Origin: a virus
Strand: one strand, 5' to 3'
IMG/VR virus record: IMGVR_UViG_3300042902_000087
Coordinates: 1 to 22,336 of that record
DNA length: 22,336 nt
The notes beneath the pieces were generated by a model, which was not told the DNA's origin, searched no databases, and saw nothing but the letters and a program-made list of their open reading frames with translations. The translations under genes were made by a program, and so were the position numbers. Below are positions 1,696 through 21,288 of this stretch, piece after piece (positions within the stretch are counted from its first letter, which is position 1; the number at the start of each line of letters is the position of its first letter).

Positions 1696-3437
1696 ACTAC
1701 TATCTCCTCTATTGTGATTGATGAAGCGATAGAACCGCCTAGTAATTGAGCCGCAGAGCGACCGTTGAATGTCAAAGTTGATGTAGCATCTGGTCCCATT
1801 CTTACTTTGAAAGTTGTTGCGGCAGTTGAACCACTGTCTACAAAAACCACAAACGAAAGTGAATTGCCGTAATTAGCAGTTTGTATAACCGCAAAACAAG
1901 AACCCACTGCATTTGCTGTGCTATCTCTAAACAAAGCAGTTGTTATATGTGCGGACAGCGAATTTGCGAAGTCTGCAACAACTGTTATTTTCAGCTTACT
2001 TGCAGCACTTAAAGGCGTTATTGCCAAACTCATAAACTGAGTACCTTCTGTATTTTGAGGAATAGTATTGTCGAGAGGTATTACTGCGGTTCCTGTTGCA
2101 AGTGTTCCAGTAGTGTAATTTACGACTTGAAGTAGCTTACCGCCTGCTCCTAATTCTACCCAAGAAGTCCATATTGTTCCGTTCCAAGCTCTAATATATG
2201 TTTTGCCATCTGCTCGATTTGTTGCTAGTTGTGAAAGAACAGTGTCATTTCCAAAGACTGAAAGAGAGTAGTATCCAGTTGCTGGCAAATTGGTAGCGGC
2301 TGAGTTAATAGCGTAATTACCCTGTGCTTTTATATTATTTAAGTCTCCAGAAAAATTTGTTGATAGTGTTGCAAAATAGTTAAAGCTATTTATAACACTT
2401 ACTCCGTCGCAGATTAATTCAACTATTATTCCGGGTTGTACAGATATTCCAGAGCCAGCACTTGTTTTAACTGTTGCAGTATAAGTTCCAGCTGAGTTGT
2501 CTACTAAGAAACTTCTCTCTGTGTTGTCTACTGTGATGTTGTGACCTGAAAGCCAAGAGCCGTCAACTAGAATCAATCGACCGTACTTATTTTCTGCTGC
2601 TGTTAGAGTGTAGTCGCTGTCTGCACTTGGCGTGATTGTTGTGGCTTGATTTTGCCATATTTGAGCAAACTCATCTATCTCGGTTTGTGTATAATAAAGC
2701 GCCGGATTAAATGTTGCAGCTTTTGCGGCCCAATGTAAAGCTGAATAGTCAGTTGTTGGAGTATAAGTAAAAGTACCGTCTCCATCAGAAGTTACTAGAT
2801 TTACAAAAGTATCTTCTGCTTCTGTTGCATAACTATCTGCTGTGAGTCTTTCTGCTTCTGCTTCCCATTCATATAGCTCTGCTTGTGTCGCGCTTGCTGA
2901 AGCTGCTGCCGCATTTGCCGCTGATGTTGTTACTGCATCAGGGATTGTTGTGTCATTTTCTATCGCATTTGCCGTGGCGTTCCATTTTATATAAGCGTCA
3001 CTTACAGGAGCAGGCAAAGAAGTAGATACGTTTTGTACTGAATCTGGTATTTTTATATATCTATTATCGTTTGATTCATTATCTGCTATCAAGTAAGTCT
3101 GATATTCTTGATCAGCATTTAAAGTTGAAGCAAGTAAGTCTCCATTTTGTTGATACTCTGTTGCTCTCGTTACACTAAGGTTTCTCGCTAGAGTTATTTT
3201 ATCATTTACGGCTGCTCCGGTATTTAAAGTAACCTCTCCTCCTGCATCACCGTTAATCGTAACAGTATAATCAGTCGTTAAGACTAGTATATCCGCTGTG
3301 TCATCTGGTGTTGCTCCTGCTAAAGTCTGATAAACTTTTATATCAGAAGTTGCAAAGATTTTAAATAAAAAAGGGAATACTGTTTGAGTTGCCGAAGCTG
3401 TGTATTCTGCTCTTGGTGTGTTAGTATTATATGCCAT
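1692..3437 (-). CDS. Tail fibre protein, T7 gp17-type N-terminus with pyocin-knob region
   Basis: 581 aa. Residues 1-125 match the T7 gp17 tail-attachment domain pattern: a 'Y.a...Q..FpFlFki' opening, a hydrophobic strand series, then 'ARNLSVTRATEYQQNG' and 'LNADQEYQTY'. An Ala-rich helical linker follows (about 165-205). Residues about 360-430 look like a pyocin-knob fold (SGDLNNIKAQGNYAI ... YIRAWNGTIWTSWVELG). The final 145 residues form a beta-rich domain typical of phage fibre tips. The protein should trimerise on the tail and bind the host surface. It begins in a TAATG overlap with the 947-aa ejection gene, with GGAGG upstream. The C-terminus would set host range. There is no C-type lectin or variable-repeat region. 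Confidence 0.85.
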   Translation of the reverse strand: MAYNTNTPRAEYTASATQTVFPFLFKIFATSDIKVYQTLAGATPDDTADILVLTTDYTVTINGDAGGEVTLNTGAAVNDKITLARNLSVTRATEYQQNGDLLASTLNADQEYQTYLIADNESNDNRYIKIPDSVQNVSTSLPAPVSDAYIKWNATANAIENDTTIPDAVTTSAANAAAASASATQAELYEWEAEAERLTADSYATEAEDTFVNLVTSDGDGTFTYTPTTDYSALHWAAKAATFNPALYYTQTEIDEFAQIWQNQATTITPSADSDYTLTAAENKYGRLILVDGSWLSGHNITVDNTERSFLVDNSAGTYTATVKTSAGSGISVQPGIIVELICDGVSVINSFNYFATLSTNFSGDLNNIKAQGNYAINSAATNLPATGYYSLSVFGNDTVLSQLATNRADGKTYIRAWNGTIWTSWVELGAGGKLLQVVNYTTGTLATGTAVIPLDNTIPQNTEGTQFMSLAITPLSAASKLKITVVADFANSLSAHITTALFRDSTANAVGSCFAVIQTANYGNSLSFVVFVDSGSTAATTFKVRMGPDATSTLTFNGRSAAQLLGGSIASSITIEEIVV

Positions 3438-11985: not shown

Positions 11986-12813
11986 CTAAGAGTTCAGATA
12001 TTTAACTTCTACGATACCAGTTACATCAATAGCAACTGACCCAGCTTTCCACATACCCATTGACAACCAAGAAGCTTTATGTGGTACATAATCAACTTTA
12101 GTTTTCATGTCAATACCTACGGCATGACCGATTGAGGCTTTATGAAATGCAAAACCTGAACGAACAGTAGTAGTTAGTGGTAAGCCACCCTCAGTACGAC
12201 CTGAGCCAATTATTTTCCACTTAAAGCCCATAAATGAGTCTATTGTTCCACTCATTAAAAGACGAACTGAATTTTTATCAATTGTGTTAATGTTAGCATC
12301 TTTTAGTAAGTCGTTTAAGCCGCCCTCGTGAATAACAAAATATCTGTCTTCCATTGGTGCTTCAACTGCATTAAGTTTCTTTGATGCTGCTGTGATTGTT
12401 GCTAAATCAAGTGCTTGCGTTCCTGCTCCAACTGTTGTAGTGGTTGTTGCTAGTGCGTTGATGATTGATTGGTCATCACGTCTGCCCATTGCTCCTGCAA
12501 TTGTTGTTGCTAATTCTACAACCTCATCAAAGTTTACTGTCTGAGCATCAAATAAATCTGTGTACTCTGGAGCTTCGTAATCTAAAAGCGTTGCTGTTAC
12601 TAAAGCGTGTGTTGTACCCATTGGCACTACGTCTGCTGAACTACCCGTTCTAAGTGTTGCTGCACCTTTGCTCATTGTACGGAAATCGTACTTGTCTCCG
12701 ACTACATTTAGACGTGTTTTTACACACTCTCTCAATGTTCTCATTCCTTGATACGCGTGTTTTACTTCGGTGTCAAATTCTGTTTTTGCTACCGTGCTTA
12801 ATGTTGCTGACAT
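11986..12813 (-). CDS. Major capsid protein (HK97-fold type)
   Basis: 275 aa. The layout is an N-terminal helix region (VKHAYQGMRTLRECVKTR), a loop and E-loop-like strand part (GDKYDFRTMSKGAATLRTG), then VVELATTIAGAMGRRDDQSI (spine helix), RYFVIHEGGLNDLLKD, and a C-terminal strand domain including FHKASIGHAVGIDMKTKVDY and VEVKYLNS. This order is typical of HK97-fold podovirus capsid proteins related to those of BPP-1-like phages. It follows the scaffold in transcription order but is separated from it by an inserted plus-strand operon. It therefore has its own apparent promoter and about 160-nt leader. The ribosome site is AAGGA six bases before ATG. Confidence 0.85.
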   Translation of the reverse strand: MSATLSTVAKTEFDTEVKHAYQGMRTLRECVKTRLNVVGDKYDFRTMSKGAATLRTGSSADVVPMGTTHALVTATLLDYEAPEYTDLFDAQTVNFDEVVELATTIAGAMGRRDDQSIINALATTTTTVGAGTQALDLATITAASKKLNAVEAPMEDRYFVIHEGGLNDLLKDANINTIDKNSVRLLMSGTIDSFMGFKWKIIGSGRTEGGLPLTTTVRSGFAFHKASIGHAVGIDMKTKVDYVPHKASWLSMGMWKAGSVAIDVTGIVEVKYLNS

Positions 12814-12875
12814 ATTAATTCCTTGTCATTAAATTTTTGATTTGGTTTCAATATTTGCTGTGGCTTTTAAGGTAT

Positions 12876-12953
12876 CCCTGAACAATCTCAGGGCTTATTG
12901 CTACTGCAACAAACTTCCATAAACTGTTCAGGCTCTTTTGAAGAGGTGTCTGA
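12876..12953 (-). promoter_or_regulatory. Capsid-gene leader with mutually exclusive hairpins
   Basis: On the minus-strand RNA, GTTCAGGG (12883-12876) can pair with the nearby CCCTGA (12893-12888, 6-nt loop) or with the upstream CCTGAAC (12932-12926, 7 bp). The upstream CCTGAAC also lies beside its own hairpin (CTCTT/AAGAG, loop CAA, 12945-12933), which is extended by TCAG/CTGA. A possible 10-codon reading frame (12920-12888, MEVCCSSNKP) has its stop inside the CCCTGA arm. The topology resembles an attenuator, but no U-run follows the last stem. It could be a regulatory leader or an RNA processing site. Confidence 0.4.
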
Positions 12954-12981: not shown

Positions 12982-12987
12982 ATTATA
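12982..12987 (-). promoter_or_regulatory. Putative capsid-gene promoter, -10 box
   Basis: The minus strand reads TTTGTATAATAG, a perfect TATAAT preceded directly by TG, about 170 bp upstream of the capsid start codon. No TTGACA-type -35 is present at the usual distance, which is common in low-GC Campylobacterota-like promoters. The inserted plus-strand operon cuts the capsid gene off from easy read-through, which makes a local promoter likely. Confidence 0.45.
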
Positions 12988-13048
12988 CAAATAATCTTAA
13001 TTTAAGTATAGGTACGATAAGATACAAGAAAGTACATAAGGAATAAGT

Positions 13049-13372
13049 ATGGCAAGAATATTAGAATCGCAAGAAGAGATAGCGCTCAATTTAATTATAA
13101 GACATATATCAATTGCTTACAGTGTAGAGTTTATGGATAGTGTGCTTAGAATAGAGGTGGGTGAGGATAAGCTGCTCGAGTTGGCGAAAAAAATTGTTGA
13201 GTCACTTCCACCCGCTATTAAAAACTATACAGGCAGTCAGCAAAAAGTTGAAGTAGATAGACTTCATATTAAAATTGGAGAATATAATTTAAAGGCTAAA
13301 TGGATAGAAAAAAAAGAACAACACACTGTAGTAACGGAAAGAGGATTTAAAAAGGAAAATAATGGAAAATAA
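13049..13372 (+). CDS. Unknown 107-aa protein, first gene of antisense accessory operon
   Basis: 107 aa on the strand opposite to all neighbouring genes. It starts with ATG six bases after AAGGA. The N-terminal half is helical (SQEEIALNLIIRHISIAYSV, then LLELAKKIVESLPPAI). The C-terminal half looks strand-rich (QQKVEVDRLHIKIGEYNLKA) and ends in a basic, charged tail. There is no signal peptide, membrane segment or enzyme motif. It overlaps by 11 bases the gene for a ribbon-helix-helix protein, so the pair is one operon. The location between scaffold and capsid genes shows it is not needed for head assembly order. An anti-defence, anti-CRISPR, superinfection-exclusion or toxin-antitoxin role is possible. 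I do not recognise the family. Confidence 0.7.
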   Translation: MARILESQEEIALNLIIRHISIAYSVEFMDSVLRIEVGEDKLLELAKKIVESLPPAIKNYTGSQQKVEVDRLHIKIGEYNLKAKWIEKKEQHTVVTERGFKKENNGK

Positions 13373-13505
13373 AACACAATCTGTCAAAGTAACGTTACGT
13401 CCTAGCCACATAAAGAAAGTTAAGAAGTTAGCAAAAGAGAAGTTTGAGGATAACTTTTCAATGGCTTTGAGATTTATGATTGATAGTTATGGGAAAGGGG
13501 AATAA
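13362..13505 (+). CDS. Ribbon-helix-helix (Arc/MetJ-type) DNA-binding protein, 47 aa
   Basis: 47 aa: an N-terminal strand (SVKVTLRPSHIKKVKKLA), then a turn and a second helix (NFSMALRFMIDSYGK). This is the strand-helix-helix plan of ribbon-helix-helix repressors, in which the dimer's paired strands (alternating V-K-V-T-L-R) enter the major groove. The ATG lies six bases after AGGA and 11 bases inside the upstream 107-aa gene, so the two are co-translated. It ends four bases from the scaffold stop on the other strand. Likely role: autorepression of this two-gene operon through sites in 12990-13048, and possibly of the capsid promoter. It is short but complete for an Arc-like protein. Confidence 0.65.
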   Translation: MENKTQSVKVTLRPSHIKKVKKLAKEKFEDNFSMALRFMIDSYGKGE

Positions 13506-13509
13506 CCCC

Positions 13510-14184
13510 CTAACCTAGTTGTTCTTCAAGTGCGATAACTTTAGCTCTGTACGCAGGGTCGGAACTCATTCGTCTATTTCCAAACTCATCTTTAGCGAAT
13601 CTCATCTGATTTAAAGTATCTCTATCCACACTTTTTGCCGCTGGTGCTTGTGCTGGTGCTGTGCCTTGTGAGTTCTTAATAATTGTTTCAAACAGTTTAA
13701 CGCTCTCTGCTGATACAAGCATATTTTCTAGTGCTTTAATGCTATCAGGACCAACGTTAGCTTTTACCCAATCAGAAACATTGTTGATTCTGGTATCTGC
13801 TTCTTTTCCAAGTAGTCCCTTTTGTTCAGCTATGTAGCTCTCCATCTCTGCCGTTTGCGTAGCCATATCCATACTGATAATTTCATTTAATGCCTCATTA
13901 CTTAGTTGGTTTGTTTTGCCCCAAGTTTGTAGTGCTTCAATTCTACTATTGCTTTCTATTCCCTCTGCAAGTTCGTATGCTTCTGGTGCTCCTTTAAAAC
14001 CGCCTAGTTTCTTGGAATAGCTAGACTGTAACTCCTTGTATCCGTTTTCTAAGTCGCTTACTGATTTGTATTTACCATCTAGGTATGAAGTAGTGCTAAC
14101 TGTTTCTCCGTTATCTCCTACTACTGATGCGACTGCTTCTGCTGCCGATGCCGTGTCTGTTGTCTGGGTTGCTTCTGTTTCCAT
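13510..14184 (-). CDS. Capsid scaffolding protein
   Basis: 224 aa from the ATG at 14184 (AGGA nine bases upstream); a TTG two codons earlier is too close to that site. The protein is acidic, helical and without cysteine. KYKSVSDLENGYKELQSSY and then GGFKGAPEAYEL (about residues 38-75) are the standard scaffold signature of T7 gp9-like and related podovirus proteins. An Ala/Pro linker follows, then a C-terminal basic helix (RFAKDEFGNRRMSSDPAYRA) that would bind the capsid inner surface. It directs procapsid assembly and then exits. It is the last minus-strand gene before the inserted plus-strand operon, which separates it from the capsid gene. Confidence 0.85.
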   Translation of the reverse strand: METEATQTTDTASAAEAVASVVGDNGETVSTTSYLDGKYKSVSDLENGYKELQSSYSKKLGGFKGAPEAYELAEGIESNSRIEALQTWGKTNQLSNEALNEIISMDMATQTAEMESYIAEQKGLLGKEADTRINNVSDWVKANVGPDSIKALENMLVSAESVKLFETIIKNSQGTAPAQAPAAKSVDRDTLNQMRFAKDEFGNRRMSSDPAYRAKVIALEEQLG

Positions 14185-14254: not shown

Positions 14255-15301
14255 CTATAAACTTATTGATGTAATGTCGTATGCAACGTCTACAAAAGTA
14301 ATAGCAATCGCCACGCTTGACTTAAGCCTGATTTTTTGAATATTGCCTGTTGTCGTTGATAACGGCCAGCTAAAACTAAACGCATCATCTGTCGCATCTC
14401 TTGGAATATTCTTAGTATAGGAGTATAAAATAGCTGAATTTGTAGCATCATATACTTCTGCTATAACACTTCTAGTTGATGTTGCTGATGGGAAAGTTAT
14501 TGATGCCGTCAATGAAGCTTTATATTGCCCGTCTAGTGGTAAGGTAATTGTCCCCGTAGTTATATTGGCAGTTGTTATTATCTCATTTTTTGAAGAGAAG
14601 TTTATTAAGTCTTGAGCAGTAGTAGTGAGGTTATAAACGCCTCCGGCTGATTGACCTTTCAGCACTGCGAAAACTGATGGTATTGCTCGAATATTAGTAA
14701 TGTTCACAAACAATCTTCCTGTTGTTGCATCTGCGACTAACACGCCTCCGACAACTGTCTTTATTGCTGGAACTATTGATGAGTATGTCCCTGCTGTTGT
14801 ATCGCTTAGGTACATTGGTGTTCCAACTGCTAACCCAAGAGTATCTATGTTGTAGACTTCTCCAAAAGTTGTAATGGCTGTTTCTTCTCCATTATTTACA
14901 TCTTTGACTGTTATCCCTCTTACTATTGCAGTTGCGAAAGAATTTGCCAGAGCTTTTTCTATTTGAGGGATGCCGCCTGCTGATACGCCGTTAATTCTTA
15001 CCGCCATACCTTTTTCAATTAATGCACCAGAATTATTAATAACGTGCATATGATTCTCATGCCCTGCCCTTAATTCTATCCCGTCCAGTGGACCTTGCAT
15101 ATTAAAAGTCTTTGTATTGCTATTATAATAAAACTGCCCCTCTACGTGAGGAACAACAGAAGCCTGTGGGAGATACGCTGTTTTAACCTGCGAGATTGTT
15201 CCATCTGCTTTAAGTACTTTGTCAGTTGTCGCAGTACCGCCTATATTAATATTGGTTATCCCTCCACTATTCAGTATCGTTTGTAGTTGCTGGTCAGCCA
15301 T
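14255..15301 (-). CDS. Head-fibre / capsid-decorating beta protein
   Basis: 348 aa. Residues about 50-215 show a repeat-rich module found in many phage head or tail fibres: 'EGQFYYNSNTKTFN', 'HVINNSGALIEKGMAVRING', 'EVYNIDTLGLAVGTPMYLSD', 'GGVLVADATTGRLFV'. The last 125 residues are Thr/Ile/Ser-rich strands resembling a jelly-roll (TNF/C1q-like) tip. The position between portal-associated Bbp19-like and scaffold genes, instead of the tail block, points to a fibre on the head or neck. It overlaps the upstream gene by 8 bases, with AAGGAG ten bases before ATG. A surface-adhesion function is inferred; a tailspike role cannot be excluded. Confidence 0.55.
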   Translation of the reverse strand: MADQQLQTILNSGGITNINIGGTATTDKVLKADGTISQVKTAYLPQASVVPHVEGQFYYNSNTKTFNMQGPLDGIELRAGHENHMHVINNSGALIEKGMAVRINGVSAGGIPQIEKALANSFATAIVRGITVKDVNNGEETAITTFGEVYNIDTLGLAVGTPMYLSDTTAGTYSSIVPAIKTVVGGVLVADATTGRLFVNITNIRAIPSVFAVLKGQSAGGVYNLTTTAQDLINFSSKNEIITTANITTGTITLPLDGQYKASLTASITFPSATSTRSVIAEVYDATNSAILYSYTKNIPRDATDDAFSFSWPLSTTTGNIQKIRLKSSVAIAITFVDVAYDITSISL

Positions 15302-20800: not shown

Positions 20801-21250
20801 TCATTTTATTATTGACATGTCATAATTATATGCCTTAACGTACACTATCCAAAGACCTTGTTTCTCTTTAGTCCACTTTTGTTTTAGTTGGTGCATCGCT
20901 TGTATTGTTTTATTGAAATGCTTTGCTAAGATTTTGTGGTCTATCGATAACAGCTCAATAGATATAGTGTCCTCTTTCATACTGTCATCTACTTTATTCT
21001 TTTCTTTGTATGTTTCAATAGCAAATATCTTTTTATTTAATACAGGTTGATATCTTAATATAAATGCTTCTTCTGTCTCTTTAAGTAAATTTTCATTACA
21101 AAGAACATAGTTATATCTATCAAAATCTTTTGTTCTTTCGTGTTGATATATTCTCATCTCAATGTTTTTAGATTGCCCAACATAAACAACTGTATCATTT
21201 TTGTATAGGAAATATACACCTATTAGATTTGGATTTATAAATTTTTTCAT
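20801..21250 (-). CDS. Free-standing GIY-YIG endonuclease
   Basis: 149 aa from the ATG at 21250, which has AGGA five to six bases upstream; earlier in-frame ATGs sit on top of that site. The nuclease core reads GVYFLY (11-16), VVYVGQSKN (21-29), Arg33, His37, and a Glu around 58-61 in KETEEAFILRYQPVLN, matching the catalytic set of the family. Residues about 103-127 (IDHKILAKHFNKTIQAMHQL) look like a helix-turn-helix DNA-binding tail. This is the build of a homing or free-standing phage endonuclease. It has its own -10 box and an inverted repeat upstream and interrupts a chain of overlapping genes, which suggests later insertion. Confidence 0.8.
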   Translation of the reverse strand: MKKFINPNLIGVYFLYKNDTVVYVGQSKNIEMRIYQHERTKDFDRYNYVLCNENLLKETEEAFILRYQPVLNKKIFAIETYKEKNKVDDSMKEDTISIELLSIDHKILAKHFNKTIQAMHQLKQKWTKEKQGLWIVYVKAYNYDMSIIK

Positions 21251-21274
21251 AAACATCCTTTTTGTTAATAGGTA

Positions 21275-21280
21275 ATTATA
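21275..21280 (-). promoter_or_regulatory. Putative promoter of the GIY-YIG gene, -10 box
   Basis: The minus strand reads TTGTATAATTACC: a perfect TATAAT preceded by TG, 25 bases before the chosen start codon. The core resembles the capsid-gene box (TTTGTATAAT). An inverted repeat lies directly upstream at 21289-21304. Confidence 0.5.
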
Positions 21281-21288
21281 CAATAATA

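Follow-up and report, generated by a model that had tools for sequence, protein, structure and literature searches.

The 22,336-nt stretch of IMG/VR record IMGVR_UViG_3300042902_000087 analysed here (the window) raises the question of why two small plus-strand genes should lie between the scaffold and major capsid protein (MCP) genes of a phage. We consider it likely that they form a swappable early-type accessory cassette, of the host-takeover or anti-defence kind, which is governed by its own ribbon-helix-helix (RHH) autoregulator and is acr-aca-like.

Gene content of the antisense locus

The cargo gene U107 (13049..13372, plus strand, 107-aa protein) and the gene for the 47-aa RHH regulator (13362..13505, plus strand) both start with ATG and overlap by 11 bp, exactly as the earlier note had read them, and a Shine-Dalgarno-like AAGG lies ahead of U107 at 13038-13041. 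They are flanked by the MCP gene (11986..12813, minus strand; phrog_3437, E 6.6e-48; PF19821, E 2e-59) and by a putative scaffold or capsid assembly gene (13510..14184, minus strand, 224 aa), in whose place Methylophilales phage MEP301 has a gene annotated "capsid assembly protein". The portal, terminase and tail genes are also on the minus strand and complete the head-tail module together with MCP and scaffold. All gene-like ORFs surrounding the pair are minus-strand, the remaining plus-strand ORFs of the window being shadows of minus-strand genes, and the pair does stand alone as the earlier note had said. The nearest cellular matches of the MCP, in Methylophaga and Paraglaciecola MAGs, are only 45-49% identical. 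The stop codons of RHH and scaffold are 4 bp apart, tail-to-tail, and an inverted repeat read from the sequence, GGGG-AATAA-CCCC (13497..13510, no strand assigned), spans this junction. Elsewhere in the window, a minus-strand gene at 14255-15301 codes for a 348-aa protein, possibly head-fibre-like and modular, whose first ~31 residues are kept in many relatives while the remainder is replaced, and a GIY-YIG nuclease gene (20801-21283, minus strand; PF01541, E 8e-5) is found upstream of the terminase genes.

Both ORFs of the pair are real genes, as judged from the fact that dN is far below dS in RHH and that U107 has a homologue in the same place in L089, a locus of a distant relative. For RHH, comparison of the window with its nearest relative, L002, gives dN 0.009 and dS 0.32, and the values for L002 and L003 together (dN ~0.01, dS 0.32-0.46) indicate purifying selection; chance ORFs are thus disfavoured. 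The L089 homologue of U107 is 43% identical, and there too it precedes RHH and overlaps it by 11 bp, the RHH proteins of the two loci being only ~55% identical. It was the only copy recovered when phage records and viral contigs were searched with the DNA and the protein of U107, so that the gene occurs in 1 of ~80 relatives and is missing from L002 and L003. This distribution disfavours a virion structural protein, and the outcome that the earlier note had named as contrary to its reading, a 107-aa virion protein kept in all relatives, is not what we find. The AF2 structure of U107 (pLDDT 44) gave no usable model; neither a signal nor a TM segment is evident in the protein, and it matched no family. 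Its match to RegB-like nucleases is very weak (E 0.07-0.09) and was not used, and its PDB sequence matches (Lck kinases, E 0.5) were set aside as chance.

Exchange of cassettes at the scaffold-MCP junction

An IMG/VR search with the MCP yielded ~80 relatives and a second, profile search added more, giving a junction set of 83 distinct scaffold-MCP sites. At 47 of the 83, the gap is 121-291 bp long and empty, as it is in the isolates MEP301 (184 bp), SI2 (219 bp) and ZCVPP1 (128 bp), which agrees with the claim that scaffold and capsid genes are normally adjacent. The other 36 gaps measure 371-2113 bp. Within the window's clade (MCP identity >60%), all longer gaps contain small antisense genes, and insertions on the sense strand are limited to distant clades.

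Alignment of relatives across this interval, which the earlier note had proposed, revealed presence and absence of the operon at clean junctions. In L002 (MCP 99% identical), the flanks are near-identical to those of the window and RHH is present, but U107 is precisely missing between the ribosome-binding site and the RHH start; L003 also has no U107 and instead carries a 95-aa gene downstream of RHH. When the empty site L027 is compared with the 1330-bp gap of L133, homology ends at the scaffold stop and restarts at the MCP -10, from which point the two are 93% identical over 175 nt. On the supported branches of the MCP tree, at least 8 changes (gains or losses) are needed for the empty state and at least 7 for the RHH state. 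Often (in L022, L024, L033, L133 and others), the final gene of the cassette and the scaffold stop share 4 bp in a tail-to-tail overlap, and insertion is therefore flush with the stop codon. Two complete-looking relatives of 34.4 kb (G001 and G003) have the cassette as essentially the sole antisense block of the genome, and G002 and G004 additionally carry an early-type module in the same orientation as the cargo. These alignments show that exchangeable antisense cassettes, made up of small early-type accessory genes, dock between the scaffold stop and the MCP promoter.

The term early-type is used because some cargo families recur in the early-type modules, which are on the same strand in G002 and G004: the first-gene family of L136 recurs in the module of G002, the MTREEA family in those of G001, G002 and G003, and a Tat-signal protein in that of G003. 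Nearly half of the antisense cargo ORFs (27/57) have no relative in the set, and searches of U107 and the other cargo against Pfam, PHROGs, NCBIfam and PADLOC gave no convincing Acr, counter-defence or defence-related match. Twin-arginine-type signal peptides are seen in the cargo of L083 (about 2908-3262) and of the L044 cassette (MTRRNFFKLIGVG.. and MNRRNFLKSIIAVG..), and these proteins are therefore probably exported. Several RHH-less cassettes (L010-L013, L024, L033, L035) share a gene mosaic, in which one gene keeps its N-terminus (MLELIQKIK..TEAGIIL.HMELF) constant while its tail varies, and further parts include a constant ..NARTNTKD end with the next ribosome-binding site inside it and a two-TM protein, a pattern suggestive of recombination at short joints common to these cassettes.

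The cargo also bears on what moves the cassettes and on what they do. One RHH-less cassette, L018, includes an HNH protein (phrog_3118, E 3e-25), and another, L131, carries a single cargo gene, for a GIY-YIG-like endonuclease of 201 aa (phrog_681, E 4e-10). These two look more like selfish DNA than anti-defence and offer a possible route for cassette mobility. If free-standing nucleases had driven insertion between scaffold and MCP, with other genes hitch-hiking, the site would be a homing-endonuclease hot spot, and the GIY-YIG gene of the window could be added to the two cassette nucleases. We consider this improbable, since a nuclease occurs in only 2 of ~24 antisense cassettes and in none with RHH, and since homing could account for the mobility but not for the conserved regulator. 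The cargo might instead alter host transcription, membrane or surface, as host-takeover or superinfection-exclusion genes do, without countering defence. The two-TM protein, the Tat/Sec-signal proteins and an HNH/Srd-like protein of other cassettes point in this direction, as does the presence of cargo relatives in early-type modules, but U107 itself has no such signal, segment or family, and we hold this alternative to be possible but rather unlikely.

The RHH regulator and the two divergent promoters

The RHH gene is found in 12 distinct cassettes, the window and 11 others, with differing partners, in line with the expectation that other small genes would swap in beside it. It occurs at the scaffold-MCP site only, and never elsewhere in complete genomes. 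It is second, after one small gene, in the window, L089, L090, L022, L136 and L083, first in L003, L130, L061 and L044, last in L133, and alone in L002. This bears directly on the toxin-antitoxin pair that the earlier note had offered as an alternative, with U107 as toxin and RHH as antitoxin. RHH antitoxins do autoregulate small two-gene operons, and the RegB match of U107 would count on the same side. However, most copies of RHH are 47-49 aa long without a toxin-binding tail, the partner differs in nearly every cassette, the position may be first, middle or last, and RHH does without U107 in both L002 and L003. Because RHH is mostly tail-less, changes partners and occurs on its own in L002, we regard a toxin-antitoxin pair as very improbable.

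The AF2 model of RHH (pLDDT 86.6) has helices at 14-27 and 32-44, which together with a strand-like segment, VKVTLRP, give the beta-alpha-alpha arrangement of the RHH superfamily. Its top Foldseek matches were ArtA (3gxq, TM 0.83), NikR and Arc, with E of 0.1 or worse for this very small domain, and a Pfam search returned no RHH-family match. The Arc/ArtA-like fold in the model and in Foldseek upholds the assignment of the 47-aa protein as a ribbon-helix-helix protein.

Seven RHH cassettes with widely differing MCPs have the block AATTTAATAnTATGTGTGnTAAAGTACATA in common, in which a TATGT...ACATA palindrome frames the extended -10 of the cargo promoter (TGnTAAAGT). With a leave-one-out matrix, the operator-like site was top of the whole sequence in 7/7 cases (scores 30-37 vs 6-16 for the next best), and the block was not found in RHH-less genomes, the RHH-less cassettes carrying ordinary TATAAT promoters. 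The earlier note had named RHH binding to 12990-13048, ahead of the cargo gene, as a point to check; related cargo promoters carry the conserved, operator-like palindrome. This palindrome is conserved in 7/12 RHH cassettes and weak in the window, where the cargo promoter and putative operator (12999..13038, plus strand) read TATAGGTAC...GTACATA, a diverged form of TATGTGTGnTAAAGTACATA. The matrix from distant RHH cassettes puts 12999-13028 of the window first, barely over background (8.0 vs 7.0), and the putative operators of L044 and L136 were not ranked first. In the window lineage, the putative operator has diverged along with the RHH protein, to a weak consensus match.

The MCP promoter diverges from this site, with a -10 box TATAAT (12982..12987, minus strand) that is conserved in nearly all relatives. 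In RHH cassettes, the putative operator lies 21 nt from the MCP -10 (19 nt in the window lineage) and adjoins the MCP -35 region. An extended -10 (TGn) is present in the MCP promoter at 26/31 sites without RHH vs 1/11 with RHH (Fisher p 2e-5, relatedness ignored), tree-independent pairs favour its loss by 4 to 0 over 7 pairs (p 0.125, not significant), and the mean -35 score goes from 3.9 in empty sites down to 2.45 with RHH. RHH may thus take part in capsid transcription, and the influence of the operon on the divergent capsid promoter that had been suggested earlier is plausible from the geometry. A stronger form, in which RHH is a dual regulator that represses the cargo and activates or times an MCP promoter that has lost its extended -10 and -35, seems to us unlikely; if it were true, the cassette would be hard to lose once capsid synthesis needs RHH. 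The extended -10 trend could also be a by-product of cassettes recombining at the MCP -10 and importing their own upstream block.

The MCP mRNA leader (12864..12953, minus strand) has a long stem-loop that is kept in relatives with or without the cassette. Among 25 leaders, which have a median folding z of -4.0, most form a helix of 7-13 bp whose sequence varies, and Rfam gave no match. Unaligned pairing shows the long helix; RNAalifold did not recover it from the MAFFT alignment, in which the leaders are apparently misaligned. The stem-loop is a candidate RNase III-type or regulatory leader of the capsid mRNA.

Proposed function and comparison with known systems

We propose that cargo transcription would start at the promoter that is back-to-back with the MCP promoter, probably early in infection, and that the product U107 most likely serves host takeover or anti-defence, counter-defence being the leading candidate function of the cassette. 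RHH made from the same transcript would then bind the palindrome over the cargo -10 and silence the operon, as Aca proteins do; motif and fold both point to this. More speculatively, its binding may additionally tune capsid transcription, because the operator abuts the MCP -35 and the extended -10 is mostly absent in RHH cassettes.

In the strictest form of the anti-defence reading, U107 would inhibit host CRISPR-Cas and RHH would be a new Aca. The layout of a small gene, an overlapping DNA-binding gene and a palindrome in the core promoter matches acr-aca operons as described (PMC9410906), and partners swap beside a conserved regulator. But U107 has no Acr similarity, the Aca families given in that source are all helix-turn-helix (HTH), and a small gene plus regulator can also serve other anti-defence and host-takeover genes; a strict anti-CRISPR locus is accordingly doubtful, and the broader reading as an accessory cassette is preferred. 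Small genes in the scaffold-MCP slot, above all those beside RHH, become candidate counter-defence or takeover genes, and the slot can act as bait for guilt-by-association searches in a phage group with few cultured members. If the reading is true, the Aca concept would no longer be confined to HTH folds but would take in an RHH-type autoregulator, and, should that regulator also touch the capsid promoter, one could test directly how accessory genes become locked into a phage genome as cassettes.

Comparison with known systems suggests that the cassette works like an acr-aca locus but is set apart by the fold of its regulator. As in acr-aca operons, small diverse genes with swappable partners stand beside a conserved small DNA-binding protein, the regulator shares an operon with a small variable gene, and in seven RHH cassettes an inverted repeat, the putative operator, falls within the core promoter, where Aca autorepressors have theirs (PMC9410906). 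The Aca1-10 autorepressors are described as HTH proteins, whereas the regulator here is RHH and falls outside these Aca families; by this fold the cassette is a non-member, and no RHH-type Aca was found in the literature that was searched. In addition, RHH may be first, middle or last, the cassette is antisense to the capsid gene and divergent from its promoter, and no known acr is nearby. The conserved RHH regulator resembles the ArtA and Arc repressors in fold and size, but there is no detectable sequence relationship to them and the genetic context differs. In Pseudomonas phages such as JBD30, the Acr locus sits among the head genes. That locus is likewise an accessory one lodged among head morphogenesis genes, but the phages are unrelated and the present cassette runs antisense, directly beside the MCP promoter. 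Anti-defence gene sets of archaeal viruses have an early regulatory sequence in common (PMC11065993), which parallels the conserved motif upstream of diverse small genes seen here; there, however, a single motif stands ahead of many early genes, with Aca8 predicted to be a wHTH protein, whereas here there is one cassette with a linked RHH.
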